Origin: a virus | Strand: one strand, 5' to 3' | Length of the DNA: 31,590 bases | IMG/VR virus record: IMGVR_UViG_3300007734_000567 | Span: 1-31,590 of that record | Shown: positions 1 to 28,104 of the stretch, piece after piece | How positions within the stretch are numbered: position 1 is the stretch's first letter | Layout: each line of letters opens with the position of its first letter | Program-made: the position numbers and the translations under genes | Notes under the pieces: generated by a model | Databases searched by the model: none | The model's input: the letters and a program-made list of their open reading frames with translations, nothing else | What the model was told of the DNA's origin: nothing

Positions 1-358
1 GGCGCTCCGTCCGCACAAGTTCAGCCTCTGCCTGGAACGCCCTTCGTTCCTCGGACACTTGCTGAGTCTTGCGGGTGTAGTCTGCTTCTCGGCTGTAGCC
101 CTTTTGGAGTTCTTCAAGCGTGACCTCGACATTCTTGCCGTCAACTTTGACGGTGAATACGGGTGGCTTGTCCTCCTCCTCCTCGGCCTCATCCTCATCA
201 GGCTGTTCCCCATCGGAGTCTTGCAATTCCTCCTCTGGAGCCGCTGAGTCAACTTCCGTCAACTCTTCATGCAACTCAACGTCCTGTTGGTCCCCACCTT
301 CCGATGGCAACATCGCGTCAATCGCACTTGCTGCGTTAGCAATATTTAGGTTATCCAT
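1..358 (-). CDS. Putative phage scaffolding protein, N-terminal part (runs off the left edge)
   Basis: The frame opens with ATG at 358 and stays open to the window edge, so about 119 N-terminal residues are seen. The first ~65 residues are very acidic, with Glu/Asp runs. They are followed by a stretch reading TVKVDGKNVEVTLEELQKGY and then SREADYTRKTQQV. That 'GYSREADYTRKTQ' signature is common in putative scaffold or head-assembly proteins next to phage portal genes, which is the basis of the call. It lies 13 nt after the 84-aa gene in the head operon, where a scaffold before the capsid gene would be expected. Charged, coil-prone composition fits a scaffold. The C-terminal capsid-binding part is outside the window, so the identification rests on motif and position only. 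Confidence 0.6.
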   Translation of the reverse strand, partial: MDNLNIANAASAIDAMLPSEGGDQQDVELHEELTEVDSAAPEEELQDSDGEQPDEDEAEEEEDKPPVFTVKVDGKNVEVTLEELQKGYSREADYTRKTQQVSEERRAFQAEAELVRTER

Positions 359-371
359 GTTTCAGTTCCTT

Positions 372-626
372 TCATTTACGGGTGCGTTCCAATTTCTTAC
401 GCTCCACCCAACCGTTATCGATCATCTTCTTCAGCTCAGTTTTCAACATATCAATGCTTTGCAGCATCGCCCACGCTTGCTCACGTTTTGCAGATTCATC
501 GGGAAGGCTAGACTTCCACTTGTAAACCTGGATATCCTGAAGCTGTTGCAGGGCATTGGTAAAAACCTCGTCTTGGAGCAGTAGCTCTGACTTGTTGCCC
601 TTGCGGATGATGTCTTCCTCGGTCAT
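372..626 (-). CDS. Hypothetical phage protein between portal and scaffold
   Basis: An 84-aa mostly helical, charged protein. The start ATG (626) overlaps the portal stop as ATGA, so translation is probably coupled. It has a central repeat of Leu/Gln helices (LLLQDEVFTNALQQLQDIQ) and a basic C-terminus (ERKKLERTRK). No enzyme motif, signal peptide or membrane segment is visible. Small proteins of this type sit beside portal genes in many phages with this head-gene order, but I do not recognise a named family. A head-assembly role is inferred from position alone. Confidence 0.7.
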   Translation of the reverse strand: MTEEDIIRKGNKSELLLQDEVFTNALQQLQDIQVYKWKSSLPDESAKREQAWAMLQSIDMLKTELKKMIDNGWVERKKLERTRK

Positions 627-2686
627 TGAAAGGTTCCTGGTTGTTGCATTTGTTGCTTGACCATCTCACGGTCAACATTCTGTGCGGCTGTAATCTCAGC
701 CGTACTTATCTGTGTGTTGTACTTCAGTTCCAGCTCGTACTTCTTTAGAGCCATCTCTTGGTACATCTTGTCTCGCGCAAAGTCATCGTCCATCACCATC
801 TTCTGGCGGCTGAGTTCAAGCTCTGCCGCCTTCTTCTGGATGTCAGCTTGAATGCTCTGTGCCTGCACCTGCGCCAGCATCTCCTCTGGCGTTGGCTTGG
901 GTGCTGGTGGTGCTGGCGGCTGGTAGTTGGCGGGTATCTGGTTGAAGAACTGGCTGGGGTCTTTAAAGCCGTTCAACTCCACAATCTTCCGCAATGTGCT
1001 GCTGTACTGCGCTGGCGTCACCAGGGGATTCACCACGCCAAGCTGGGTCAGCACTTCTTGCTGCTTGGCGCTGATCTGCATCAGTGCCGCCACGCGCTCG
1101 TTGGTGTCTCCGTTGCCCATGCCAATGTTGATGGAGCAGTCCATCGCAGCATTCCAGGCTCTCGGATCAATCTGCACAAACTCATTCCGCAGGCGCACCA
1201 TGCGAGCCTTGTCCTGGTGGGTGGTCACCAGGAACAGGATTGACTTAAACAGCTTCCGCATACCTTCAGCCATCAGCCTGGATATCAACTCAATGCGGCC
1301 CTGGCTGGCTGAGATGGTTGCTGCCACTGCCGCCTTGGTGCTGGACTGCAAGGCGTCAGCGTTCAGGCCCATAGCCGCCTTGCTCATGCCAGTACGGTCT
1401 TCACGAATCTGGTCAATGTAGTCCAGCATTGGGAATGCGGCTTGTCCTACAAATGGAGTAGAAAACGGTTGAACCATGCCGGGTGCCCTCATGCGGATGA
1501 TGGCACCTGTCTCGTTGTTCAGTACATCGTCAATGTTGACCTGGCCCTCCACAATGGCAGTCCTTGGGTGGATGCTCTGCGCCAGGCTGTCCAGCGTGTT
1601 TCTTAGGATTTCGATCTTGATCTCCTGCAGGTCATGGGTGATGTCAAAGATGGACATCGCTTCTAATGGGCTGGTGTGTGGCTCGGGGTCGCAGGGGAAG
1701 TCAATGAAGGGAATGTAGCTTGCTGGCAGGTTCCTGAGAATCTTGTAGCCGCTGCCGATGCAGCAGACCTTCCGCAACTCGGGGATACCGTCCTTGTCGT
1801 AATCAACCCGCAAATACGCCTCAACATACAGCACTCGCTCCATCATGGGGTTGGCGCTCTCAACAGAAACACCAAATGCGGTCATGGGCTGACGCGCCAG
1901 GTACTCTTGGTTGGTGTCCAAATCGGTGCTGGTGATGTTCTCCCTCACCTCGTCCTCGTCGTAGCCCAACTCAATCAGTTGCGCCACTGTCGCCATCTGG
2001 CGGTGGGCAATGATGGCTGAGTCATCAAATGACCTAGCCCTACGGTCCAGCAGCAGTTCCTCGGGCGGCACAGACATAATCCGCACCCGCCCACCCTTGA
2101 TCTTTCGCTTGATCTGGACATCGTGCAGCTGGCCCATTGCCTGGTCAGGATAGGTGTTCATCACCATCACATCAGTCTGCTCTTGCATCAAAATCTGCAG
2201 CGTCTGGTCATCAAGTCCAGAATACTCCTCAATGCGGACAGTCTCATCCTCCTCCCACCAGCACTTCATAATCCCGCACTTCCGCACCAAAGAATCCTTG
2301 AAGGTGGCGTAGGTGGTCAGGAAACCGTTGTTGTCAGAGTTAAAGATGAAGTTGCAGTAGTCAGTAGCCTGCTGTGCGTTAGCAACGTCCTCTGGGCCCG
2401 TTGGCACAAACTCAACTGTGTTTTCGCTGCTGAAGAAGATACGCATCAGTGATGGCATCATGGCTGATACTGTGTCTCGCACCTCCATAGCCACCACCTG
2501 AGAGCGCCCCTCCTCCTCGGTGCCGAACAGGTCACCGCGGTAGTACTCAGTACCCTTGGCGCGGATAGGACTCAGGTCAGTGTCAATGTAGCTGACTGCA
2601 TCGGTCAGCTCAATGCTGATGATGCCTTGCAGCTCGTCCAGGTCCATGACCTCAACGGCCTGGGTGTCGGTGTTTAGATTTTCCAT
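623..2686 (-). CDS. Portal protein
   Basis: The dodecameric vertex ring through which DNA enters the head and to which the tail connector binds. The reading frame is about 690 residues, within the size range of P22-like portals. Support: an N-terminal helical region with RDTVSAMMPSLMRIFFSSEN; a middle part with ADALQSSTKAAVAATISASQ-like clip/stem helices; a Gln/Ala/Lys-rich C-terminal coiled coil (EEMLAQVQAQSIQADIQKKA) like a barrel; and a place between terminase and scaffold genes. The frame extends to a TTG at 2707, but ATG 2686 has AAGGA six bases upstream and is preferred (687 aa); ATG 2692 is the alternative. The stop overlaps the next start. Confidence 0.85.
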   Translation of the reverse strand: MENLNTDTQAVEVMDLDELQGIISIELTDAVSYIDTDLSPIRAKGTEYYRGDLFGTEEEGRSQVVAMEVRDTVSAMMPSLMRIFFSSENTVEFVPTGPEDVANAQQATDYCNFIFNSDNNGFLTTYATFKDSLVRKCGIMKCWWEEDETVRIEEYSGLDDQTLQILMQEQTDVMVMNTYPDQAMGQLHDVQIKRKIKGGRVRIMSVPPEELLLDRRARSFDDSAIIAHRQMATVAQLIELGYDEDEVRENITSTDLDTNQEYLARQPMTAFGVSVESANPMMERVLYVEAYLRVDYDKDGIPELRKVCCIGSGYKILRNLPASYIPFIDFPCDPEPHTSPLEAMSIFDITHDLQEIKIEILRNTLDSLAQSIHPRTAIVEGQVNIDDVLNNETGAIIRMRAPGMVQPFSTPFVGQAAFPMLDYIDQIREDRTGMSKAAMGLNADALQSSTKAAVAATISASQGRIELISRLMAEGMRKLFKSILFLVTTHQDKARMVRLRNEFVQIDPRAWNAAMDCSINIGMGNGDTNERVAALMQISAKQQEVLTQLGVVNPLVTPAQYSSTLRKIVELNGFKDPSQFFNQIPANYQPPAPPAPKPTPEEMLAQVQAQSIQADIQKKAAELELSRQKMVMDDDFARDKMYQEMALKKYELELKYNTQISTAEITAAQNVDREMVKQQMQQPGTFQ

Positions 2687-2701
2687 GCTCATTCCTTGAT
2701 A

Positions 2702-2726
2702 CCCCAAAAATACAAATCTCTTGGGG
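2702..2726 (-). other. Small stem-loop just upstream of the portal ribosome binding site
   Basis: In the 67-bp gap upstream of the portal gene, CCCCAA (2702-2707) and TTGGGG (2721-2726) form a 6-bp inverted repeat with a 13-nt AT-rich loop. On the minus-strand transcript it lies directly before the AAGGA that serves ATG 2686. It could modulate portal translation or be a processing site. There is no T-run placing it as a terminator. Weak evidence. Confidence 0.3.
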
Positions 2727-2753
2727 ATTGATTTTCGCTGAATTCAAATTGAC

Positions 2754-3440
2754 TCATTGAAACCAAACCTTCGCATACTCAGGACGATTTAACTCAATCC
2801 AAGGTTTAGCCGCCAGCGTCAGCGCATATGCATCTCGGCCTATGGTGCTGCTGCCAATGTGATGCACATAGCTGGCACTCAAAAAATGCTTGTAGCCCTT
2901 CTTCGCCAAATCAATGCAGATGACATCATCGCTGAAGTAATTGATGGGCGGGAACTGGCAATCTTCAAACGCCTCTGAACTCATCCAAGCAAATATCGGA
3001 CTCACGACAGACAACTGCTTGACAAATGACTCATGGTTGAATTTCATGCCGTTGAGTTTCTCACCATCATTGAACCTAATATTCTGGATTGGCCTCACGG
3101 CATCAGACCTGGACGCCACCAGGCCAGGGTTCTGCTGCAGCTCATTGCAAATCGCCACATCATCCAGCAGCACCCGGTAGCTGCTGGGCGTCAAAACAAT
3201 ATCGTCATTGGCTATCACCACAGCATCATGCCCATCACTGAGTGCTTTGCGGATAACTGCGTTGTAATCATCACCAAAGTTGCTGGCATCACCAAACACC
3301 AGTGTGCAGTTGTAACCATCAATCACCCTCTCTGGCCCCTTCAGATACACCTGGACATCAGGCGCGTACTGCCTGATGCTCTCCAATAGCACGGGTAAAC
3401 CCCTGCCGTGGACGGTGCTGATGACAATGGGAGGGTTCAT
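2754..3440 (-). CDS. Glycosyltransferase, GT-A (family 2-like)
   Basis: A 228-aa protein that starts with a short Rossmann-like strand (IVISTVHGRGLPVLLESIRQ). The segment AVVIANDDIVLTPSSYRVLL has the DD pair expected of the metal- and nucleotide-sugar-binding DxD site, at about residues 95-105. A second acidic pair is in INYFSDDVICIDLAKKGY, as in the acceptor/catalytic loop of GT-A enzymes. No membrane segment. ATG 3440 overlaps the preceding stop (ATGA), so it is expressed with the terminase-portal operon. A small glycosyltransferase inside a head operon could modify virion proteins or a host structure; the substrate cannot be told from sequence. Confidence 0.7.
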   Translation of the reverse strand: MNPPIVISTVHGRGLPVLLESIRQYAPDVQVYLKGPERVIDGYNCTLVFGDASNFGDDYNAVIRKALSDGHDAVVIANDDIVLTPSSYRVLLDDVAICNELQQNPGLVASRSDAVRPIQNIRFNDGEKLNGMKFNHESFVKQLSVVSPIFAWMSSEAFEDCQFPPINYFSDDVICIDLAKKGYKHFLSASYVHHIGSSTIGRDAYALTLAAKPWIELNRPEYAKVWFQ

Positions 3441-3877
3441 TCCAGCTCGGTGTCCATTTCCTCGTCTTCAACAATCCATGCATCGCAAGTTCTGCTGGAC
3501 GCACACTTAAAATCAAATATCTCGCAGTACCCCAAGTCGCCACCCTCAATCACTGCCCAGGGGTCACCCTCATCACCAATGCCCTCGGCAATGCAGGATT
3601 CAATCTCATCGCTTTGATTAAACGCAGAGCAGTTACCGCAACGGCTCTGCTTTGCGTCCTTGGCGCTGACATCCCACTTTTCTGCCTTACGCATCCAAAA
3701 CTCGGTGTTGGGCAGCTTGGGATTCTCAGGACCGTATGCCGCCTTGGTAATCGCCTTCTCACGATTCTTTAGATTCAGCGTCACATCCTGAGTTGCCTCT
3801 GGACAACTATCACCAGGCTCCTTACCGCCCATGATAATCATCACGGCGTGTTTCATTTCCTTGGGTACGGTTCTCAT
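3437..3877 (-). CDS. Cysteine-rich phage protein, probably metal-binding
   Basis: A 146-aa acidic protein. Its C-terminal half carries six cysteines: C80 and C83 (RCGNCSAFN), C95, C118 (GYCEIF), C125 and C131 (FKCASSRTCDAW). The spacing and the final 'CxAW' resemble small Cys-cluster proteins known from many aquatic phage genomes, where zinc or iron-sulfur binding has been assumed. C25 lies apart in a less conserved N-terminus. It sits in a chain of ATGA overlaps between the DUF6496-like gene and the glycosyltransferase gene. Function unknown; metal binding is inferred from the cysteines only. Confidence 0.65.
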   Translation of the reverse strand: MRTVPKEMKHAVMIIMGGKEPGDSCPEATQDVTLNLKNREKAITKAAYGPENPKLPNTEFWMRKAEKWDVSAKDAKQSRCGNCSAFNQSDEIESCIAEGIGDEGDPWAVIEGGDLGYCEIFDFKCASSRTCDAWIVEDEEMDTELE

Positions 3878-4032
3878 TTCATGCCCTTCTTCATTTTCTG
3901 TGCCTCGGACATAGCAATGGCAACGGCCTGGTCACGGGTCTTCACCTTCTGACCGGAGCTGCTCATCAGCTTCTTGTTTTTGTACTCGCCCATCACCTTT
4001 GCAATTTTCTTGGTTGCTGCTGTAAATTTCAT
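3874..4032 (-). CDS. Small basic DUF6496-like protein
   Basis: A 52-aa lysine-rich protein (MKFTAATKKIAKVMGEYKNK at the start). It contains a pattern 'KVMxEYKxxxLxSxSGxKVxxRxQAVAIAxSEA' that I recognise from the short DUF6496 family found in phages and bacteria. Its ATG (4032) overlaps the terminase stop, and its TGA overlaps the next ATG, so it is tightly coupled on both sides. The basic charge would suit nucleic acid or head-protein contact, but no function is established. Confidence 0.75.
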   Translation of the reverse strand: MKFTAATKKIAKVMGEYKNKKLMSSSGQKVKTRDQAVAIAMSEAQKMKKGMK

Positions 4033-11689: not shown

Positions 11690-11844
11690 ATCGTGTAGCT
11701 GACCAGGACACCGCTGACCAGGAGAGCGATAGCGCCTGCTGCGCCAGGGTCAATGCCAATGACTCTGGAAAAAGATGGGACAGGCGTGGTGCCTGTCCCG
11801 AAAGTAGGCAACTGCGTGGCCTGAGTTGCATTGTAGGTTGTCAT
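11617..11844 (-). CDS. RuvC-like resolvase, N-terminal part (separated by a frameshift)
   Basis: A 75-residue frame. Its ATG (11844) overlaps the regulator stop as ATGA. After ~25 unconserved residues it has the RuvC first strand SRVIGIDPGAAGAIALLVSG with the catalytic Asp. After LVSY the frame loses family resemblance and runs to a stop at 11617. The resolvase sequence continues in the -1 frame as HDMPTVTVERNK. A 9-bp terminator-like hairpin (11777-11799) lies inside its unconserved 5' part. As it stands it would make a short non-catalytic peptide unless ribosomes shift frame. Confidence 0.65.
   Translation of the reverse strand: MTTYNATQATQLPTFGTGTTPVPSFSRVIGIDPGAAGAIALLVSGVLVSYTICPPSPWSATSPKNGKSVQLDSQC
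11769..11799 (-). terminator. Terminator-like hairpin inside the resolvase 5' coding region
   Basis: Perfect 9-bp inverted repeat GGGACAGGC (11777-11785) / GCCTGTCCC (11791-11799) with a 5-nt loop. On the minus-strand transcript it is followed by AUC and five Us (As at 11769-11773). The shape is that of an intrinsic terminator, placed about 40 bp after the stop of the regulator gene. It overlaps codons for the poorly conserved N-terminus of the resolvase, so it may act as an early attenuator. Confidence 0.55.
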
Positions 11845-12047
11845 GCCAACTCAGGCCAAATCTTGGCCCAGGTTCCCTGGCACAGCATCTGCCTGGTGAC
11901 TGTTCCACCAGACGCAGCCTCTACTCGAATGGCTTCTGCTGGACTCATGTCCCGCCTGCCGCTGAGACACTGGTAGAGCCACTGCTCGTTAAGGCCAACC
12001 CGTTCTGCGAGTTCTTGGCGCTCTGTTGCTGTCAATTTGTTGTCCAT
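11841..12047 (-). CDS. YdaS/Cro-like transcriptional regulator
   Basis: A 68-aa helix-turn-helix protein. QELAERVGLNEQWLYQCLSG and RRDMSPAEAIRVEAASGG match the Cro-like YdaS family, including the typical C-terminal QMLCQGTWAKIWPELA. Such proteins bind operators at the phage early control region, acting as Cro or antitoxin-like repressors. The frame extends to TTG 12152, but ATG 12047 gives the family length. That ATG has no purine-rich ribosome site. A -10-like TAGACT with TG extension ends 7 nt upstream, which would give a leaderless mRNA as for lambda cI. The stop overlaps the resolvase ATG. Confidence 0.85.
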   Translation of the reverse strand: MDNKLTATERQELAERVGLNEQWLYQCLSGRRDMSPAEAIRVEAASGGTVTRQMLCQGTWAKIWPELA

Positions 12048-12209
12048 GCGAAAGAGTCTAGCAGACTGCTTGAGTCGTTTGGGGTAGGTGTTTACCCTTA
12101 AGGGTTTGTCATAGTAAATATTTTTGCTAAAAGCCTTGATAGGCACTAGCAAGCCGCTAGAATTCTACTTAAGCCCTAGCACTTTTCACAGGGTCTTTTA
12201 GGAAGCAAA
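12048..12209. promoter_or_regulatory. Divergent control region between regulator and plus-strand block
   Basis: This 162-bp AT-rich gap separates the leftward regulator from rightward genes. It contains a perfect 12-bp palindrome ACCCTTAAGGGT (12094-12105) that looks like an operator, and a 5-bp inverted repeat CTAGC-AAGCC-GCTAG (12146-12160). A -10-like TAGACT (12055-12060, minus) lies 7 nt before the regulator ATG. It is the natural target of the YdaS/Cro-like protein, but operator identity is inferred. Confidence 0.55.
12136..12163 (+). promoter_or_regulatory. Putative sigma-70 promoter for the plus-strand block
   Basis: TTGATA (12136-12141) and TAGAAT (12158-12163) each differ from the sigma-70 consensus by one base and are 16 bp apart. 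The first plus-strand gene starts 47 nt after the -10. The -10 overlaps the right arm of the CTAGC inverted repeat, so a bound regulator could block it. Confidence 0.55.
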
Positions 12210-13219: not shown

Positions 13220-13260
13220 CTGACCCGACTATCGCTTCATGGAGTCGAGAGAATGATTGA
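13216..13260 (+). CDS. 14-codon linking minicistron
   Basis: A 14-aa frame (MTDPTIASWSRENDstop). It begins in the ATGA overlap with the 95-aa gene and ends 8 nt inside the PAPS-reductase-like gene. AAGGAG lies upstream. Possibly a coupling or leader peptide; very low coding evidence. Confidence 0.25.
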   Translation: MTDPTIASWSREND

Positions 13261-14086
13261 CCCATTCAAAATTACAGAGCCAACTTGCATCAGTTTTAGC
13301 GGTGGACGCACCAGCGCCTACATGCTTTGGCGTGTGCTTGAGGCTCACCAGATGAGCCTGCCACCAGAAGCCGTTGTCTGTTTTGCGAACACTGGCAAGG
13401 AAGATGAGGCAACCTTGAGATTCGTGCAGGACTGCTCAGAGCAGTGGGATGTGCCGATTGTGTGGCTGGAGTATGCCGAGGTGGATTACACCATTGTCAA
13501 TTTTAAGACTGCCAGCCGCAACGGTGAACCGTTTGAGGCACTAATTTGCAAACGCAACTATTTGCCTAACCCCGTGACCCGGTTTTGCACCAGCGAACTG
13601 AAGATTCGTCCAATTGGACGTTACCTGTTGTCTTTGGGCATGGCTGACACCAAGACAGAAGCTGAAAACATGAGCATGATTGGCATGAGAGCAGATGAAC
13701 AACGCCGAGCCGCCAAGATTCCAGATAAGTCGCGAATCCCACTGGTAACGGCAGGCATCACAAAAGAGGATGTTGGCGCATTTTGGCGCAGCCAACCATT
13801 TGATTTGGGCCTGCCAAACAACAACGGCGTGACTATGCATGGAAACTGTGACCTATGTTTTCTGAAAGGCGGGTCACAAGTGTTATCCCTAATTGCGGAA
13901 AAGCCAGAACGTGCTATATGGTGGGCAAAAATGGAGGCGTTGGCGTTGGCGTTGGCGTCCAAGCCAAGCGGTGCGGTGTTTCGCTCCGACCGCCCCAGCT
14001 ACGCATCAATGTTGCAATTTAGCAAAGATCAAACAGATTTTTTTAACCCAAATGACGAATCAATTGCTTGTTTTTGTGGAGATTAA
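13253..14086 (+). CDS. PAPS reductase-like PP-loop ATPase
   Basis: A 277-aa adenine-nucleotide alpha-hydrolase family protein. The PP-loop SGGRTSAY is at residues 16-23. The PAPS-reductase/DndC-type motif RFCTSELKIRP (110-120) follows, with C99 nearby. Further cysteines C199 and C202 (GNCDLCFLKG) and C273/C275 (ACFCGD) could bind a metal or iron-sulfur cluster. These proteins activate a substrate with ATP for sulfur chemistry. In phages they are often labelled PAPS reductases, but nucleic acid modification is equally possible. GGAG lies eight bases before ATG 13253. A (GGCGTT)3 stretch encodes ALALA near 13936-13953. Confidence 0.85.
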   Translation: MIDPFKITEPTCISFSGGRTSAYMLWRVLEAHQMSLPPEAVVCFANTGKEDEATLRFVQDCSEQWDVPIVWLEYAEVDYTIVNFKTASRNGEPFEALICKRNYLPNPVTRFCTSELKIRPIGRYLLSLGMADTKTEAENMSMIGMRADEQRRAAKIPDKSRIPLVTAGITKEDVGAFWRSQPFDLGLPNNNGVTMHGNCDLCFLKGGSQVLSLIAEKPERAIWWAKMEALALALASKPSGAVFRSDRPSYASMLQFSKDQTDFFNPNDESIACFCGD

Positions 14087-16394: not shown

Positions 16395-16562
16395 TTAACG
16401 ATGCAGCGTCAGGCTGGCATAGACGATAGCGGACATTGAGACAATCAACACCCCGGCGGTCTTCATAATGACGCCTTCCAAGCGTTTTAATCGTGCGTTG
16501 ATTTGTGCGTATCTCTCAGCGCAGACGGCTTCGTGGCTGGAGAATTGTGTTTCAAGGCTCAT
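16395..16562 (-). CDS. Small coiled-coil/TM protein, XhlA-like holin partner
   Basis: 55 aa from ATG 16562, overlapping the previous TAA (TAATG), with GGAG about nine bases upstream. The N-terminal amphipathic coil (HEAVCAERYAQINARLKRLE) is followed by one membrane helix (TAGVLIVSMSAIVYASLTL). This layout matches the XhlA family, which cooperates with holins. It lies two genes upstream of the putative holin. Confidence 0.6.
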   Translation of the reverse strand: MSLETQFSSHEAVCAERYAQINARLKRLEGVIMKTAGVLIVSMSAIVYASLTLHR

Positions 16563-16876
16563 TATGCTTGGCTCCATGCAAACCAACCATCAGCCAATAC
16601 TTTAGCCTGAGTTCTAAATTCCTGATATACCGCATACTTATCACCGCCATCATTGATAGCTGCAAACTCTGCGTTGTAAGAGTAAACGCTACCAATAATT
16701 GCGCTAATAATCTGGCCTCTGTCATCGGCTAAATTGCATACAGCTTCATTTTGTTCCCACTGCATTCGAGGCTCACCCATGCTTGGGGCTGATACTTGTT
16801 GTGCATTCCAGTGTATCAAGAGCAATTGACCACTCACCTGATATGTGGGTAGTTGCTCGTCAGAATATGTTTTCAT
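16562..16876 (-). CDS. Acidic hypothetical protein coupled to the DGR reverse transcriptase
   Basis: 104 aa, MKTYSDEQLPTYQVSGQLLL at the start, aromatic and Gln/Ala-rich, net acidic. Its ATG (16876) overlaps the RT stop (ATGA), so it is translated with the DGR. It does not look like Avd, the basic four-helix DGR accessory protein. It could be a fiber chaperone/assembly factor, a structural protein, or an unrecognised accessory of this retroelement. No known domain is visible. Confidence 0.6.
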   Translation of the reverse strand: MKTYSDEQLPTYQVSGQLLLIHWNAQQVSAPSMGEPRMQWEQNEAVCNLADDRGQIISAIIGSVYSYNAEFAAINDGGDKYAVYQEFRTQAKVLADGWFAWSQA

Positions 16877-17898
16877 ATTGCGCCTCTAAGTTGTTTGGGA
16901 TATGTCTTAACTAATTTTAAAGTCATGTGCTTGCGCCACAACATCTTTGCATTGGCATTTTTTGCCCAACCTTTGTAAGCCATCAAACTACTTAAGGCAG
17001 TAGTTTTATCAAGCATCTTGATGTTGTTTTTTATTCTTTTGCAATTTGCTTTAAAGTTTGTTGCAATTGTTTTTCTAAGTCTTGTGTATTTTGTTTTAAA
17101 AACAAAACCAACAAAATCAATTCCGTCTTTTGCAACTGTATACAAATTCCAGTTTAACTTTATTTCAAGTTTAAGTTTTGCCAAATGTTCAATAATCTTT
17201 GCTTTTATAAATAACAACTTAGCTTTATTGTCATCCATAAAAACAATGTCATCACAATATCTAAAGTAACCTTTGGGCTTGTACTCCTGTTTGACAAGCC
17301 AATCTAATTTACTTAAATATAAATTACCCAAATGCTGAGATGTGTAGTTACCAATCGGTAAACCTTTGATGCTGTCAATGATGTTGTCTATCAACCAAAG
17401 AGTGTCTTGGCATTTAATCTTTCGTCTAACTTCTATTTTTAGCAACTCGTTATCAACTGAGGGGTAATACTTTTTCACATCAACTTTAATTGCGTATGTA
17501 GGACAGTCTTTAGACCTAATAAGAGCCTTGACCCTTTTCATTGCGTCAGATGTGCCGCGCCCTGTAATTGACTGGAATGTATCTCTGATAAAAGAATTGG
17601 TAAAAATTGGGCCTACCACATTAAGTAGTGTGTGCTGAACAATCCTATCTGGGTAATAAGGCAACTTATGAATTGTCCTCATTTTCCTACCATCAAATCG
17701 TTCCTCAGTCTCGTACTCGCTTGTATCAAACTCTTTGCTTAACAACAAATCTTGAATCTGCTTAGCGTACTTATCTAAATCAGCGTCAACCATTATGACT
17801 TCGTTGTAAAAAGACTTACCCCTTCTAGCCTGTCGATGCGCGTGCTTTATGTTTTCAATGTCTGTAATCTGGCCCCAAAGGTTTCCAATGCGTTTCAT
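16873..17898 (-). CDS. DGR reverse transcriptase
   Basis: Copies the template-repeat RNA with adenine-directed errors to make mutagenic cDNA. The 341-aa RT has motif A IKVDVKKYYPSVD (137-149; D140), the DGR-type motif IGNYTSQHLGN (182-192) in place of the QG motif of other RTs, the catalytic YCDD (214-217) and a GFVF segment (264-267). There is no integrase, protease or RNase H extension, and its length is as expected for DGR RTs. ATG 17898 has a strong GGGAGGAA site about 9 nt upstream. The gene is markedly AT-richer than the fiber gene, with Lys/Ile/Asn-rich coding, suggesting acquisition as a module. Confidence 0.95.
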   Translation of the reverse strand: MKRIGNLWGQITDIENIKHAHRQARRGKSFYNEVIMVDADLDKYAKQIQDLLLSKEFDTSEYETEERFDGRKMRTIHKLPYYPDRIVQHTLLNVVGPIFTNSFIRDTFQSITGRGTSDAMKRVKALIRSKDCPTYAIKVDVKKYYPSVDNELLKIEVRRKIKCQDTLWLIDNIIDSIKGLPIGNYTSQHLGNLYLSKLDWLVKQEYKPKGYFRYCDDIVFMDDNKAKLLFIKAKIIEHLAKLKLEIKLNWNLYTVAKDGIDFVGFVFKTKYTRLRKTIATNFKANCKRIKNNIKMLDKTTALSSLMAYKGWAKNANAKMLWRKHMTLKLVKTYPKQLRGAI

Positions 17899-18155
17899 CG
17901 CTGGTTTCCTCCCTGCTGTTCGCTTACGCTACCAAGCAGTATTGGATTGCCATATTCGCCCGTTAGGGCAGGGGTTTTGTGCCACATTTCTGCAACAGCG
18001 AGGTGTGTACCAATATTACGATTCAGATTAGAGGAATCATTATTCAAATTCCAATAGAAACTGCCTGCATTCGCCCCATTATTCGCATTACCGCCAAATA
18101 ACGTGACCTGCCAACTGTTAAACCAAATCAATTGCACAATAACCCCTTCAAACAT
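17895..18155 (-). CDS. Open frame spanning the template repeat
   Basis: An 86-codon frame that starts at ATG 18155 directly after the fiber stop (TAAATG) and ends in an ATGA overlap with the RT. Residues 13-53 are the in-frame template version of the fiber tip and so are Asn-rich. The rest (AEMWHKTPALTGEYGNPILL and onwards) has no recognised match. There is no ribosome site before the ATG, so translation would need termination-reinitiation. It may be only a by-product of the repeat keeping the fiber frame. The region's main product is probably the non-coding template RNA. Confidence 0.3.
   Translation of the reverse strand: MFEGVIVQLIWFNSWQVTLFGGNANNGANAGSFYWNLNNDSSNLNRNIGTHLAVAEMWHKTPALTGEYGNPILLGSVSEQQGGNQR
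17998..18120 (-). repeat. DGR template repeat (TR)
   Basis: 123 bp aligned without gaps to the 3' end of the fiber gene (18163-18285) at a fixed offset of 165 bp. Of 34 adenines in this repeat on the minus strand, 25 differ in the variable copy. Every C, G and T is identical. This one-way, adenine-only pattern identifies it as the template. It starts 99 bp upstream of the RT gene and is rich in AAT/AAC codons, which give the widest amino acid range when adenines are randomised. Confidence 0.97.
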
Positions 18156-21100
18156 TTAAAAGGCGAGGCGCGCACCAATAACACGATTCAGACCAGAGGA
18201 ATCATAAGACAAAAACCAACAGAAACCGCCCGCACCCGCCCCATCATCCGCATCACCGCCAAAAAACGCGACCCGCCAACCGCTATTCTGATAATAGTAA
18301 TCTGCCCAATAAGTGCTGGATGAACCACCAACTGCTGAAGGCAAAAACGCATAAGGCTCTTGTTGGCAATTGGTTACATAGCCATCAGTTGCTACCATTG
18401 CCGCACCAATTGATACGTAGTTTGTTGAGGTGTCGTCAGCAAAGTTAGTGTTTGTATTACTCACAAATGCTTGGTTGCTGTTGATGTTATAGCCATCAAC
18501 CCAGTTCCAACAATTACCATACCAGTTTTCAATCCCGCGATAAGACATGAATGCCGTATCGCGAGTGCCGCTAGACGCACCCGTTGTGGTGTTGGTGCTT
18601 GCGTTGCCAATACTGTTTGACTTGCCCGCTATTGAGTGTGGTGAATCTGTTTGAGTTCCCGAGGAGGGAGCGTTATATGCTCCAGAAACAGCAACATTAC
18701 CATCACCAATGTTTTGCTGAGTTCTAAAAGTTCCATACTCAACCAAGAACAATAACTCAACCGCCCAAGCCAAATAGACATCTACTTGTCTCCAACCCGT
18801 ACCGCGATTAGCCGCAAGCGTTCTGCAATTAGCGCGAGTAACACCAACAGCAGGGTAAATGCCAGAAACAGAAGAAAGTTTAGGAGTTATGTCGGTGCTC
18901 CAAATTTGACCAGATGTCCAGTTATTGTCGTAATTCAAACCAGATTCATAAGTTGTACCAGTTGAATTCACGCAAGCATCGTAAGCACCAATGTATCGGT
19001 AAGGAACAAACTCACCATTCTTAAAAAACGCTGGGTGCAAAGCGTATCCAGAAACAGGGAATAAAGAGATAGACCAAGTACGGGTAGAGCCTGCTGTGAA
19101 TTTTACATAAAAAGCAGGAATCTCAACCATCACTTGACCATCCGCACCTGTCAAAACAGATGCGTTTCCGTTGGCATTCAAAGCAGAATTTGTTGGGTCT
19201 AAGTAATAATTAACAGCACCATTGTCAAACACAACACAACGCCGCATTGAGGTGTGAACATCCGTTACACCACCGCCAGAGTATGTGTCTGTTGATTGTG
19301 TCCAAGATACCGATTGAGCCACTGTTAATGATGTAGCCGATAGGGTTGTGAATGTTCCAGCCGCAGGGGTTACATTACCAATAATGCCTTGCAGAGATGT
19401 GGCAGTTGCTACTCCGAGGGCAGGAGTTACCAAAGTAGGTGAAGTCGCAAAAACAGCAGAGCCTGTTCCTGTCTCATCAGTTAAGGCAGAACGTAGATTA
19501 GCTGAACTAGGAGTCGCTAGAAAGGTTGCTACGCCAGTACCTAAACCGCTGACGCCCGTTGATACCGGCAAGCCCGTCAGGTTTGTTGCTGTGCCGCTGC
19601 TGGGGGTGCCGAGTGCCCCGCCGTTGACGACAAAAGCGCCAGCAGAGCCTGTATTAACGCCAAGGGCTGTGACGACACCCGTGCCCGTAGTCGTAGTGCT
19701 AGGAGCCGCACCAGCCCCGCCGCCAATAACCAATGCGCTTGCTGCCAGTGCAGCAGACGATGCCAATGTGCCAGCAGCTGTGTAGGCCAGTACGCCGCCC
19801 GATGTGCCTGCTGTAAGCCCCGTGCCGCCGTTGGCTACGGGGAGTGTGCCTGTCACGCCTGTGGTGAGTGGCAAGCCTGTGGCGTTGGTTAGGGTGACGC
19901 TGGTGGGCGTTCCTAAGATTGGGGTGACAAGGGTAGGGCTGGTGGCAAACACAGCAGAGCCTGTGCCTGTTTCGTCCGTAAGAGCGCCAGCCAAGTTAGC
20001 TGAGCTAAACGAACCCAGCAGCGTGGCATTGCCTGTAGAGGTAATTGCGCCGGTTAAATTGGCATTGGTAGTCACGTTACCTGCTGTCAACCCTGCTGCC
20101 GTGCCTGTAATGTTTGTGCCGATTAGGGCAGATGGTGTACCAAGATCAGGAGTAACTAAAGTTGGCGAGGTGCTAAACACCAAGTTGGTTGAGGTTGTGC
20201 CTGTTGCACCAGCCGCCGTAAAACCAGATATATTGTTAAACGCTGCTATGCCTGCGCTGGTTGCGTTTGTGCCGCCCAGGGCCACTGTGACGGGTACTGT
20301 GAGACTAAACGCTGTGCCGGTTAGAGTCAGCCCAGTGCTGGCGGTATAGCTGCCTGCGCCTGCAAATTGCACAAACGTGATTGCTGTAGTGCCTAACGTG
20401 CCGCCAGCGTTTGACGTACAAACCCATCCGGTATCTGCTAACGTAGTTCCTTGCTCAATAAACGCAAATGCGCCTGGCACTTCTGCCCAAGCGTCCATGT
20501 CGGCTGATCTGGCCCAGGCTCCAGCGGCTACAACGTAAATGCCATTGTCGGCTGGCGCTGTTTGATTTTTGACCAAGCATCTGTCTGCCGCAATCAAGGC
20601 AACGCCGTCAATTGTCTGTGTGCCGGATAGCGTAATGTTGGCAGTGGTAGCCGCTACGCATGAGGCTTTAGGGTCCAACCCTTGGGCTACGGTATCGACA
20701 TAATCCTTGTTTGCAATGTCTGTGGATGCTGATGGAGTCGTGGAAATTGTGCCTGCCGTCACCGACAAATTAGCAATTGTGCCAAGGCTTGTTAATGATG
20801 AGCCGGTAACGCCAGCTGCTAATGTGCTGCCTGATAGCGTGCCTGCCGGTGCAATGACCGCTGCTGTGGTGATGCTGGTTGTCAAGCCTTTAGCATTGAT
20901 TGTCACCACTGGAATGGCGGTGCTAGAGCCGGTAACGCCTGCCGTTGCTACAGTTGCCAAGGTGCCTGCTGCGGTGACGTTTGCAGAGCCGTCAAAGCTG
21001 GGCGATGTGTAGGCCAGGTCGCCAGTGATTGCGATTGTCCTGCCCGTTGCCAAGGTGGTGGCTGTGCTGGCGTTGCCTGTTAATGCTGCTGTGACAGTTC

Positions 21101-22562
21101 CGGCGACAAAGTCTCCGCTGGCGTCCCGAGCCACAATTGCACTTGCAGTATTTGCTGATGCTGCCGTGGTAGCTGAGTTGCTGACTTTTAGGGCTGTGCC
21201 AATTGTTGCCAGTTTAGTGTCGTCAATTGCGGCAGATGCGTTTATGTCTGCGTTGACAATCACGCCTGCGGCTATTGCAGTGGCATTGCCAACAGACGTA
21301 ATGTCGCCCGTTAAATTAGCGTTGGTGGTGACATTGCTTGAAGTAAAAGACAATGCTGTGCCGGTAATGTTTGTTCCTACAAGCGCGGTAGGCGTGCCAA
21401 GATCAGGCGTAATTAAAGTTGGCGAAGTATCAACAACAAACTTTGTCCCTGTACCAGTTTGACTTGCAATTGATGTTACGTTGCCAACTGAAGTTATCGG
21501 CCCTGTCAAATTAGCGTTAGTTGAATTATTGCCATCCAATTTTTGAATAGCTTGTAATATTGAATCTGTAGCTGCGACTGTGCCTGCACCAGAAATGTAG
21601 CCCGTCAATACTTTTGCAATTACTGGCGCATTGGTCAACGTAGTGGCATTGCCAATTGACGTAATGTCGCCCGTCAAGTTTGCGTTAGTGATTACTGTAG
21701 CTGCATTGCCAACACTTGTAACCCCACCCGTTAGGTTTGCGTTGGTGACTACGGTAGTTGCATTGCCAACCGATGTGACCATCCCGGTTAGGTTTGCGTT
21801 AGTCGTGACGTTGCCAGCAGTTAAACCAGCCGCCGTGCCGGTGACATTTGTCATTACGCCAGATGCCGGTGTTCCAAGTGCTGGGGTAACAAGTGTCGGG
21901 CTAGTAGCAAACACGACAGCACCTGTGCCTGTCTCATCAGTAAGAGCAGCCGCTAAATTGGCGCTAGAAGGCGTTGCAAGGAAGGTCGCCACACCAGTGC
22001 CCAATCCGCTGATGCCGGTCGCTACGGGCAATCCTGTGGCGTTGGTAAGGGTGCCTGATGCAGGTGTCCCAAGCACTGGCGTGACTAGCGTTGGCGATGT
22101 TGACAAAACTGTGTTGCCAGTGCCTGTGCTTGTGCTGACTCCGGTGCCGCCGTTAACTACGGGAAGAATGCCAGTTATGTCGGCAGTAGACAGACTAATG
22201 GCGTCCCAGGCAGAATTAGTGCCGTCCGTCTGAAGATACTTGTTGGCATGAGTTGTCTGCACTGGCAACAAAGCATTGAATCCTGCATTTGCCGTAATTT
22301 GCCCAGTACCGCCAAGATTAACCGGCACTGTTAACAAGCTGATAGTTGAGCCAGAAATATTGATAGGCGTGGTTGCGTTGTACTGGATAACGCCCACAGG
22401 TCCAACTGTTTGAGTCGTGCCGTTGGTGTAGGTAATGAGCAAATAATTTGCTTGATTGATGACAACCAGCGAAATGCTTGCAATGCCAACCCCTGCTACG
22501 CCGCGATCTAAACTGACGGTGACATTGTTGCCGTCTACTACAGTGACTTGCATATTTGCCAT
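18156..22562 (-). CDS. Tail fiber / receptor-binding protein, DGR target
   Basis: 1468 aa. A short N-terminal attachment region (MANMQVTVVDGNNVTVSLDR) is followed by a long Thr/Gly/Asn/Ala-rich repetitive shaft with units like NANLTGxITSVGNAT, TSPTLVTPxLGTPxSG and PVxNGGTG. The last ~250 residues are a C-type-lectin/FGE-like domain (GTGWRQVDVYLAWAVELLFL; YRGIENWYGNCWNWVDG; GWRVAFFGG; IGARLAF), the fold typical of DGR targets. The variable repeat is its extreme C-terminus, so the ligand-binding surface is hypervariable. ATG 22562 has AAGGGG upstream. Followed immediately by the TR and RT. Confidence 0.92.
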   Translation of the reverse strand: MANMQVTVVDGNNVTVSLDRGVAGVGIASISLVVINQANYLLITYTNGTTQTVGPVGVIQYNATTPINISGSTISLLTVPVNLGGTGQITANAGFNALLPVQTTHANKYLQTDGTNSAWDAISLSTADITGILPVVNGGTGVSTSTGTGNTVLSTSPTLVTPVLGTPASGTLTNATGLPVATGISGLGTGVATFLATPSSANLAAALTDETGTGAVVFATSPTLVTPALGTPASGVMTNVTGTAAGLTAGNVTTNANLTGMVTSVGNATTVVTNANLTGGVTSVGNAATVITNANLTGDITSIGNATTLTNAPVIAKVLTGYISGAGTVAATDSILQAIQKLDGNNSTNANLTGPITSVGNVTSIASQTGTGTKFVVDTSPTLITPDLGTPTALVGTNITGTALSFTSSNVTTNANLTGDITSVGNATAIAAGVIVNADINASAAIDDTKLATIGTALKVSNSATTAASANTASAIVARDASGDFVAGTVTAALTGNASTATTLATGRTIAITGDLAYTSPSFDGSANVTAAGTLATVATAGVTGSSTAIPVVTINAKGLTTSITTAAVIAPAGTLSGSTLAAGVTGSSLTSLGTIANLSVTAGTISTTPSASTDIANKDYVDTVAQGLDPKASCVAATTANITLSGTQTIDGVALIAADRCLVKNQTAPADNGIYVVAAGAWARSADMDAWAEVPGAFAFIEQGTTLADTGWVCTSNAGGTLGTTAITFVQFAGAGSYTASTGLTLTGTAFSLTVPVTVALGGTNATSAGIAAFNNISGFTAAGATGTTSTNLVFSTSPTLVTPDLGTPSALIGTNITGTAAGLTAGNVTTNANLTGAITSTGNATLLGSFSSANLAGALTDETGTGSAVFATSPTLVTPILGTPTSVTLTNATGLPLTTGVTGTLPVANGGTGLTAGTSGGVLAYTAAGTLASSAALAASALVIGGGAGAAPSTTTTGTGVVTALGVNTGSAGAFVVNGGALGTPSSGTATNLTGLPVSTGVSGLGTGVATFLATPSSANLRSALTDETGTGSAVFATSPTLVTPALGVATATSLQGIIGNVTPAAGTFTTLSATSLTVAQSVSWTQSTDTYSGGGVTDVHTSMRRCVVFDNGAVNYYLDPTNSALNANGNASVLTGADGQVMVEIPAFYVKFTAGSTRTWSISLFPVSGYALHPAFFKNGEFVPYRYIGAYDACVNSTGTTYESGLNYDNNWTSGQIWSTDITPKLSSVSGIYPAVGVTRANCRTLAANRGTGWRQVDVYLAWAVELLFLVEYGTFRTQQNIGDGNVAVSGAYNAPSSGTQTDSPHSIAGKSNSIGNASTNTTTGASSGTRDTAFMSYRGIENWYGNCWNWVDGYNINSNQAFVSNTNTNFADDTSTNYVSIGAAMVATDGYVTNCQQEPYAFLPSAVGGSSSTYWADYYYQNSGWRVAFFGGDADDGAGAGGFCWFLSYDSSGLNRVIGARLAF
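18163..18285 (-). repeat. DGR variable repeat (VR) in the fiber C-terminus
   Basis: Last ~42 codons of the fiber gene (residues about 1426-1467). Relative to the template it carries 25 substitutions: 18 A to G, 6 A to T and 1 A to C on the coding strand. These change 18 amino acids, for example Asn to Asp, Gly, Phe, Ser, Tyr and Val. The 3' border CCTCGC, shared by both copies just before the stop, is the candidate initiation-of-mutagenic-homing end. No second variable copy was found in the window. Confidence 0.97.
19380..22240 (-). repeat. Degenerate modular repeats in the fiber shaft
   Basis: The shaft is built from interspersed imperfect repeats. I count six copies of NANLTG-(x)2-TS-xGNxT and six of TSPTL(V/I)TPxLG, plus several 'xxNGGTG' units. 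The DNA repeats are similar but not identical, allowing unequal recombination and shaft-length change. The same codon pattern leaves long spurious antisense open frames. Confidence 0.75.
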
Positions 22563-26700: not shown

Positions 26701-27008
26701 TTAGGGCTAATGCTGCTGATTGCCAGCACGTAGTACATAGATTGCTGGTCAATTGTTAGCACTGCGTCCACAAATGTGCCGCCCATGTATGCGCTGCCGT
26801 ATACGATTGGCAAACTGTTAGTAGTGTTTGGTGCTACCTGTTGCCTGACGCCTTGATCTACTGGTTTATTTGCTGTTGGGTCATTTGGGGCAAAAATTCG
26901 ATTAACAACGTAGCTAACGGCAAAATTAACTGCAAATGTTGATATTGCTAAAGCCGCAGCGCCACCTCCTAATAAAGCTGCTCCAGCCGCAATAATTGTT
27001 GCTACCAT
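23712..27008 (-). CDS. Tail tip / host specificity protein J-like
   Basis: 1098 aa, the large tail tip protein. Residues ~5-35 are an Ala/Gly-rich hydrophobic segment (IIAAGAALLGGGAAALAIST) followed by NRIFAPNDPTANKPVDQGV, as in many J-like proteins. Next come VRQQVAPNTTNSLPIVYGSA and a central domain (RYRINGVLDTGQNVLANIDR; VVSITNTSYGWSAKLFRVMK) typical of the J/gp27-like tail hub (PF13550-type). The C-terminal half is beta-rich and repetitive (YTETSTTVVL, QFSEVDYDL), like receptor-facing domains. ATG 27008 is preferred over TTG 27011 and overlaps the preceding TGA. Confidence 0.85.
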   Translation of the reverse strand: MVATIIAAGAALLGGGAAALAISTFAVNFAVSYVVNRIFAPNDPTANKPVDQGVRQQVAPNTTNSLPIVYGSAYMGGTFVDAVLTIDQQSMYYVLAISSISPNGQFTFDRTKFYYGDRLVTFDASDLTKVVSLTDGAGNVDTKISGYLYINLYTSTDAGAITTITGTAPNTAMGGADIISAERWPAAVRQMNGLAFAIVKLNYNQDAGTTNLQAITFNVTQNLNGTGAAKPGDVWADYLGNEVYGGGMAAGLIDTASATALNTYADQTITFTDSNGNPATQARYRINGVLDTGQNVLANIDRIMLACDSWNAYNAASGQWSIVINKAESTAYAFDDTNIIGDIKVSLTDITNSINQIEAQFPNKLNRDQRDLVYLETPSNLLYANEPINKFSCNFDLINESVQVSYLANRVLEQAREDLIVGINAAYPAIQLDAGDVVSITNTSYGWSAKLFRVMKVSEVSLPDGNLGASLELNEYNAAVYDNATIVQYSPAPNTAITDPSFFGVVPAPTVTASYPSAAVPTITVQPYVGTASFVTVAEIWYSAFASPTPSQLYLLGFTQVPSNGVPISPSQSLPTISATLPGGNWYLFARLVNGIATSQYSVASSVLQWRPTTFQYTERYINVRYGNDLVGTGFTTNPRNKAYYGLQNTPSSTGSSNASDYTWYQASSNFSTDKYLLYVNRGNRKFSFEVGEASFVNLNAAFVPTNTAVYDPTIWLGLEDGINSIDLDIRTGQLTIVGTTAVSQQDGIVSVTNNTNGTMVVKLAQFLNFGAGVYSKNFAAATLTIDVFGRVVGFTSPDSFYYTESTFQATAAQTTFSVTHIVGDVLVFKNGLLLDTTEYTETSTTVVLGTGCTLNDTVIIINMRAVSTSVYYEDLGLTITAVTSTTITYADQPYQDILAGELLTFTNVGTPTTYTVSTINTSTKVITFTGTIAGAAINDNVFRYRAAASTYRPWTRYSADVTAVTTYTPTTITIQNGFESIYVNGVQFSEVDYDLDGPAIVGFPGAVTGKITIILYAPNNYNVPASNVTNSVAYSVNGAITYTFPSNPLAMEIYANGVILAKTYDYTASAANYNLVTAIPNNYTLLNQQTFARDGAA

Positions 27009-27457
27009 CAATGCACCCTAAAAAATGTTGCTTGCATGGGGCTGTAGCCTCGTTTGGTGTAATCAATCCATGAGTTGTTTGCCATGACTGCGGTTACTGC
27101 AACATCAATGCGTCCATCGTCAATTAAATCTGTAGCCAGGCGATCAAATTCTTTCCAGAGCCTGCCGCCCACAGTGCCATTACGATGCTCGGGTTTAACC
27201 CACCACGCCAGTTCATGCAGTTCGTAGACTTCTGGACACCAGACGTTTGTGGTAATCAGTGCAGCAATAAACCCTCTTGATTCATTGTCGATCAGCACAA
27301 ATCCACGCCCTGCCATCATTTGCGTCATTAAATTAGCAACGTGCGTTTCATCATGGGCTGCTGCTGCTTGCAGGGCTGGCACAGGCGTCTGCGTGCTGTA
27401 GTCCCGCATCATTTGCAGCAACTGAGGCATATCGTGTTTGTTGGCTTCACGAATCAT
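27008..27457 (-). CDS. GNAT-family N-acetyltransferase in the tail operon
   Basis: 149 aa. The GNAT acetyl-CoA-binding motif A is seen in ELAWWVKPEHRNGTVGGRLW (R/Q-x-x-G-x-G/A pattern), after the usual N-terminal REANKHDMPQLLQMMRDYS. A motif B-like end, MANNSWIDYTKRGYSPMQAT, follows. Transfers an acetyl group from acetyl-CoA to an amine; the substrate is unknown. It sits between the tail hub genes with one-base start/stop overlaps, a position also seen in other phages, so it may act on a virion protein or host target. ATG 27457 is preferred over the adjacent TTG. Confidence 0.8.
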   Translation of the reverse strand: MIREANKHDMPQLLQMMRDYSTQTPVPALQAAAAHDETHVANLMTQMMAGRGFVLIDNESRGFIAALITTNVWCPEVYELHELAWWVKPEHRNGTVGGRLWKEFDRLATDLIDDGRIDVAVTAVMANNSWIDYTKRGYSPMQATFFRVH

Positions 27458-28104
27458 CAATTTATTCCTGGTGATTCAAAAGTCGTTTGAGCGTTTGAGG
27501 TATTGCTGCTGACTGTGGCTGATTGCGGTGGTTTGCCAAAGTCAAAATACGTGGCTGCAATCGCCGGGACACGGTTCATGCTAGTGTCGCTAGGGTAGAT
27601 AAAATTCCACGCCTTGGGAGTCGTTTTAATGCCCTGAATGCGGTTTTCTAGAATGGTCCGAAAGCTGGCGCAGGTTATGCCAACCGTGGCGATGCGTGTT
27701 CGCAATTGATCGTTAAAATCTTCAGTGATTGAACAATTGCTGACAATGCCAGAGTAGCGTTTAAAAAACTGCTGGCTTGGGCTAGTAATGATTTGATTGT
27801 TGCTGTCTAAGAATCCACGCCATACGTCAATGTTGCTGCCCTTGATGTTGGCGGCAAGCACAACGGCAATGTTAGTGCCGTCCACGCCTGTGAGCGATAT
27901 TGCTAGGTCGGCGCTGTTGGCTTTAATGCTACGGTCAATGGCGCTGATGGATAGCAGACTTCCCAGGTTGCTAAACGTCATCCCATCCACGGTAATTGCT
28001 GCTGCCGCATTGCAAAAATAATAGGTTGCCGTGCTGGTAATAAGCCGTATAAATTCGGCTTGAATGATGGATGGGCTGCTCAGTGCAGCCATTGCGGTGG
28101 TCAT
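27457..28104 (-). CDS. Tail protein, DUF2163-like distal tail component
   Basis: 215 aa. The N-terminus IIQAEFIRLITSTATYYFCN, then a 'SNLGSLLSIS...SADLAISLTGVD' pattern and FKRYSGIVSNCSITEDFNDQ, resemble the N-terminal beta domain of DUF2163/BR0599-type tail proteins found upstream of J in siphoviruses. No enzyme motif. ATGA overlap with the preceding gene. Likely part of the tail tip complex between the distal tail protein and J. Confidence 0.7.
   Translation of the reverse strand: MTTAMAALSSPSIIQAEFIRLITSTATYYFCNAAAAITVDGMTFSNLGSLLSISAIDRSIKANSADLAISLTGVDGTNIAVVLAANIKGSNIDVWRGFLDSNNQIITSPSQQFFKRYSGIVSNCSITEDFNDQLRTRIATVGITCASFRTILENRIQGIKTTPKAWNFIYPSDTSMNRVPAIAATYFDFGKPPQSATVSSNTSNAQTTFESPGIN

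Follow-up and report, generated by a model that had tools for sequence, protein, structure and literature searches.

The virus record IMGVR_UViG_3300007734_000567, analysed here as an entire sequence of 31,590 bases (the window), almost certainly carries a complete diversity-generating retroelement (DGR) of a tailed phage that lacks avd. By itself the element is ordinary, with an architecture already described for DGRs; the added value comes from its comparison with related loci, which concerns a structured RNA located between the template repeat (TR) and the reverse transcriptase (RT) gene, and the influence of the following base on the fate of each template adenine. On the minus strand the order is tail fibre gene (22562-18156), a 42-nt gap after the variable repeat (VR), the TR, a 99-nt spacer and the RT gene (17898-16873). 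The components proposed in the initial annotation, i.e., TR, VR, a DGR-type RT and a target fibre, are all present (Table 1).

Table 1. Features of the retroelement and its surroundings (positions in the window).
Feature	Position	Strand	Basis or remark
Target gene, 1468-aa tail fibre, VR at the extreme C-terminus	18156..22562	-	ORF; phrog_5302
C-type-lectin/FGE-like C-terminal domain of the fibre, 345 aa	18156..19193	-	AlphaFold2 model and Foldseek
VR (variable repeat)	18163..18285	-	25/34 template-A positions changed, 0/89 others
TR (template repeat)	17998..18120	-	9 adenines before G/C, 25 before A/T
TR-RT spacer, structured RNA	17896..18003	-	Covariation in 27 sequences; covariance-model matches upstream of RT
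DGR reverse transcriptase, 341 aa	16873..17898	-	RVT_1, phrog_1423, motifs IGNYTSQ and YCDD
Open frame of 86 aa that spans the TR and reaches the start of the RT gene	17895..18155	-	Probably no gene; frame shifted in relatives
104-aa fibre-associated protein (probable), overlaps the RT gene	16562..16876	-	Tracks the fibre rather than the RT in relatives; not Avd

The tailed-phage genes in the record include those for a SU10-type portal, a tape measure, a lysozyme and a small terminase similar to that of Sf6; no nucleotide relatives were found among the named phages. Three other genes are outside the element. A phosphoadenosine phosphosulfate reductase-like gene (13253-14086, plus strand; phrog_424, 3e-47), which is an auxiliary metabolic gene, sits on the strand opposite to the structural genes; a weak GNAT acetyltransferase match (27008-27460, minus strand) lies amid the structural genes, and a YdaS/HTH-like small protein (11841-12152, minus strand), which scored under the curated cut-off, is a possible regulator.

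The evidence for the element begins with the two repeats. When the alignment of the TR (17998-18120) and the VR (18163-18285) was recomputed, it extended over 123 bp without gaps and gave the same figures as the initial annotation: 25 mismatches, every one of them at an adenine of the TR on the coding (minus) strand, which has 34 adenines in total, and identity at the 89 other bases (Fisher p = 6e-19 for A versus non-A positions). The spectrum of 18 A>G, 6 A>T and 1 A>C changes was recovered as well, and a hand count of the two translations again yielded 18 altered residues. The similarity ends abruptly on both sides, and the RT starts 99 nt beyond the TR. Past mutagenic homing, as was first proposed, is the only sensible reading of these differences. 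None of the TR codons can be converted to a stop codon through A>N changes, and only 4 nt separate the end of the VR from the stop codon of the fibre gene. With respect to IMH and IMH*, the 3' ends of the VR and the TR differ at A positions only, and the two sequences diverge after a shared CTCGC. An exhaustive A-tolerant repeat search for further VRs in the whole 31.6-kb record returned this pair alone.

Profile searches matched the RT to RVT_1 (3.1e-12) and phrog_1423 (2.2e-95), and its homologues are located in DGR loci, in agreement with its original assignment to the DGR type. The gene is intact, and its translation carries IGNYTSQ, which fits the motif (I/V/L)GxxxSQ defined for DGR RTs (PMC3521204), and YCDD, which fits YxDD; its nearest relative is 67% identical. 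As a separate observation, some annotated phage RTs probably include the TR as a false N-terminal sequence, because the phrog_1423 profile opens with a segment that matches the translated TR.

Residues 1101-1468 of the fibre match the tail protein family phrog_5302 (3.5e-85). The AlphaFold2 model of the C-terminal domain, built from a 29-row alignment, has a pLDDT of 75.9 and a pTM of 0.81, and its best Foldseek match is TaqVP (5vf4), the variable protein of another DGR, with E 3.5e-10 and a probability of 1.00; Mtd variants of BPP-1 rank after TaqVP, below significance. The VR lies in the C-type-lectin-like tip of the tail fibre, and the switching of host range through changes of the tip, which had been stated as the aim of the element, is a reasonable inference. 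The N-terminal two thirds of the fibre (18156-22562, minus strand) look like a shaft made of repeated stretches, e.g., 'TSPTLVTPxLGTPxSG' and 'TTNANLTG'.

Searches with the RT gathered 8 and then 47 loci in viral contigs (these sets overlap) and 80 in microbial genomes. Seven of the first 8 close relatives have an A-only TR/VR pair in the same layout, and an A-only pair was found in 116 of the 134 RT-bearing loci; nearly all of these 116 show the order VR-TR-RT.

Two features of the BPP-1 element were searched for without success. The Pfam bAvd model PF22296 matches nothing in this record, which is possibly incomplete, even though the BPP-1 Avd used as a positive control was detected. The same model gave 0/23 in relatives of the same architecture; among more distant relatives, 37 of the 49 records or genomes have no Avd, scored over the whole record regardless of linkage to the cassette. 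Avd-like domains accompany 62% of the DGR RTs in complete genomes (PMC8934634), i.e., they are common but not universal, and the DGR of crAssphage LMMB, assigned to 'lineage 3', has the order target-VR-TR-RT without avd (PMC7290462). The second feature is the GC-rich hairpin or cruciform that follows the VR in BPP-1 (PMC3240598): downstream of the present VR no stem of at least 6 bp was found and the folding z was 0.27. Most close relatives likewise do not have this hairpin, which is a feature of BPP-1 and several phage DGRs and is not universal.

Given that two open frames overlap or abut the RT gene, i.e., the TR frame (17895-18155) and that of the 104-aa protein downstream, it could be thought that both encode DGR accessory proteins that act in place of Avd, and the retention of the 104-aa protein in almost all close relatives would agree with this idea. 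We consider it very improbable, since the distribution of both frames goes against it. The 86-aa TR frame was rejected as a translated peptide because it is shifted in five relatives (L014, L016, L017, L021 and L042) in which the nucleotides are conserved. The 104-aa protein was rejected as an Avd substitute since in relatives it tracks the fibre gene, and it has no Avd-like fold match. Its gene directly follows the fibre gene in L142 (fibre 3-3215) and L154 (fibre 2637-3989), records of 21 and 25 kb without an RT whose fibres are homologous to the one described here; these may be sites without a TR-RT cassette, or possibly targets served in trans. In L019 (50-3255), where two tandem fibre genes both have VRs and share one TR, a copy lies downstream of each fibre gene, that is, also after the second target, and in L166 the gene is placed before the RT. 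The model of the protein is a confident beta-plus-helix structure (pLDDT 91), and the family has no match to Pfam, PHROG or PDB folds. The 104-aa protein is probably a fibre-assembly or fibre-associated protein.

The spacer between the TR and the RT is conserved as a structured RNA. A helix (P1) forms between the 3' end of the TR (18001-17996) and positions 17903-17898, next to the start codon of the RT; it encloses a small hairpin, P2 (17970-17957), and the P3/P4 hairpin (17946-17910), whose loop is of the GNRA type and whose internal loop, GGUA/GAA, may resemble a bulged-G motif. When 27 sequences were aligned with MAFFT, the structure showed 97 double-change cells versus 31.2 +/- 3.8 in shuffled alignments, and 91% of the pairs of the 21-pair structure form, compared with 36-45% when the partners are slid by 1 to 3 columns. 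Since the fold energy of the single sequence is unremarkable (z = -1.09), it is solely this covariation that carries the claim of a structured spacer.

A first covariance model placed 27 of its 28 matches (E < 1) in TR-RT spacers, as judged by their positions versus the RT starts, and gave 104 bits to the spacer of this record, in which the RNA is fully kept. A second model, made from 35 training sequences, was used to scan 545 kb of loci outside the training set, a few of which are near relatives of training sequences; it gave 61 matches, and 61/61 end within 150 nt upstream of an RT, while 48 of the 51 with a known TR start within 60 nt of it. The spacer model also matches crAssphage LMMB (26.6 bits), cr56_1, Perkons and LBR48, but not BPP-1. 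A search of Rfam gave no match for the spacer. Because the loci were gathered by RT similarity, the claim for this RNA applies to this RT group. A strict regular-expression search found the GNRA hairpin in 14 of 79 distant spacers versus 0.46% of control windows; of the two tests, the one by covariance model is to be preferred. For BPP-1, the spacer is already known to be structured (PMC12875486; PMC8867640); no report of a family-wide spacer structure was found in the searchable literature. The Shine-Dalgarno-like GGGAGG of the RT gene overlaps the 3' arm of P3, and for this reason folding of the spacer and translation of the RT may compete.

The lack of a PF22296 match and of a post-VR hairpin could also be taken as signs of decay, i.e., that both avd and the hairpin were lost, that the cassette is dead and that the VR is just a record of past homing. 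We give hardly any credit to this explanation, because the RT is intact with its motifs, 25 of the 34 template adenines have already been rewritten, the spacer RNA is retained in full, and relatives that also lack avd still show turnover of the VR between near-identical genomes. In eight of nine near-identical pairs the VR differs at 30-50% of the TR-A sites, and in these same eight the other VR sites differ by 0-5% and the rest of the sequence by 0.1-5%. For instance, L014 and L016 differ at 14/34 template-A sites, 1/82 other VR sites, 0/116 TR sites and 0.35% elsewhere; likewise, the values for L005 and L053 are 15/30, 1/69, 0/99 and 0.4%. The remaining pair, L033 and L034, shows almost no VR change (1/18). 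Since the VR has been rewritten between near-identical relatives, the DGR lineage is active, a conclusion drawn from comparing the sequences of close relatives rather than from this phage's own element; an exact 30-mer search for a second genome or near-identical copy of this phage found none.

A further result concerns the adenines themselves. Of the 103 adenines that precede a G in 31 TR/VR pairs of this phage's clade, 97 had changed, without exception to G; with C as the next base, 96 of 102 had changed, 95% of them to G; by contrast, where the next base was A or T, about 64% of the adenines had changed, with mixed outcomes. Overall in the clade, A[GC] becomes G in about 92% of cases, silent sites included. 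The present record shows the same bias, given that 9/9 A[GC] became G versus 9/25 A[AT] (p = 0.001), so that the A[GC] class makes up half of its 18 A-to-G changes. The initial annotation had treated the 34 adenines as equally variable. The exclusive targeting of adenines stood, whereas their equal variability did not: since the 9 adenines before G or C almost always become G, about 25 adenines, not 34, carry real diversity here.

Many of the A[GC] sites give Ser>Gly, Thr>Ala or Gln>Arg replacements, and the fold may need a small residue, so that the excess of A>G could in principle reflect selection on the protein (a requirement for Gly, Ala or Arg) instead of a context bias of the RT. This explanation is unlikely. 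At fourfold-silent sites of the clade, 44 of 46 A[GC] became G versus 10 of 20 A[AT] (p = 4e-5), and since silent sites behave alike, the main cause must lie elsewhere than in selection on the protein; besides, context dependence is already known for the BPP-1 RT, for which NAC was shown in E. coli to favour misincorporation of G, i.e., A>C (PMC12875486). A context bias of the RT is the preferred explanation. The share of A[GC] that becomes G is 0.93 at RT identities of at least 60%, 0.90 at 48-57%, 0.78 at 42-46% and 0.90 at 35-42% (phage), and only 0.35 in cellular DGRs; in four named phages and archaeal viruses it is 34/44. If the RT reads A[GC] as G, it makes no difference whether the template has A or G at these positions, and the drift to G in the TR columns agrees with this: in an alignment of 24 TRs, A makes up 91% of the A[AT] columns, compared with 54% A and 27% G in the A[GC] columns. 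An earlier survey described the substitutions as essentially random, with G the commonest (PMC3521204). No earlier report of a near-deterministic A[GC]->G class was found in a search that covered mainly the openly accessible literature.

From these results, the following sequence of events can be proposed. A transcript would carry the TR together with the adjoining spacer, and the spacer would fold, by analogy with BPP-1, as a closed RNA with several hairpins, bracketing the 3' end of the TR and presenting it to the RT. As in that system, the spacer RNA may recruit the RT and prime the cDNA near the TR 3' end. The RT would then copy the TR into cDNA and misread its adenines, those before G or C as G and those before A or T at random; the cDNA would replace the VR with which the fibre gene ends. 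Exposed residues of the C-type-lectin-like tip would be altered in this way, and a different receptor would presumably be bound.

A broader proposal is that DGRs without avd form a mechanistic class, in which a folded spacer RNA in cis replaces the role of Avd plus spacer, and adenines are read in two modes, both of them unreported; we regard the chances of this proposal as evenly balanced. Within it, the present comparisons support the RNA as well as the context pattern, and the functional roles and the priority are presumed. If true, the spacer, with the TR 3' end paired at the RT start codon, would handle both recruitment of the RT and priming, and the next base in the template would separate fixed from variable positions. 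In dozens of avd-less DGRs of phage, bacterial and archaeal origin, the spacer covariance model points to where the RT gene begins, and would thus give DGR annotation an RNA handle, as well as a concrete RNA for testing recruitment of the RT in the absence of Avd. In turn, the next-base rule alters the way in which DGR diversity is counted (25 instead of 34 free adenines in this case) and predicts which A/G changes of the template are neutral.

The element is not exceptional, as catalogues of DGRs list over 30,000 of them (PMC8144416), and the layout target-TR-RT without avd was already described (PMC7290462). The order found here is that of 'lineage 3', a comparison made by gene order and pairwise RT similarity. 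With BPP-1 (mtd/avd/brt) the element shares the RT class, a receptor-binding tail protein as the target, a TR-RT spacer and adenine-only TR/VR differences (17/23 adenines are changed in BPP-1). It differs in that BPP-1 needs Avd, and has avd between the VR and the TR as well as a post-VR hairpin (PMC3240598); also, the BPP-1 spacer fails to match the present RNA model, and its RT puts G opposite A at NAC (PMC12875486), whereas in the present clade NAC gives G in the VR. The VR-bearing domain has the fold of TaqVP from Thermus aquaticus (5vf4), with 16-18% identity in the structural alignment. As for crAssphage LMMB, the present phage is unrelated to it (SU10-type portal), and has a larger fibre and a 42-nt gap between VR and TR; nevertheless, both have the target-VR-TR-RT order, no avd, a C-type-lectin VR and RTs that are 36% identical, and the spacer RNA model matches the crAssphage sequence (26.6 bits) just upstream of the RT.
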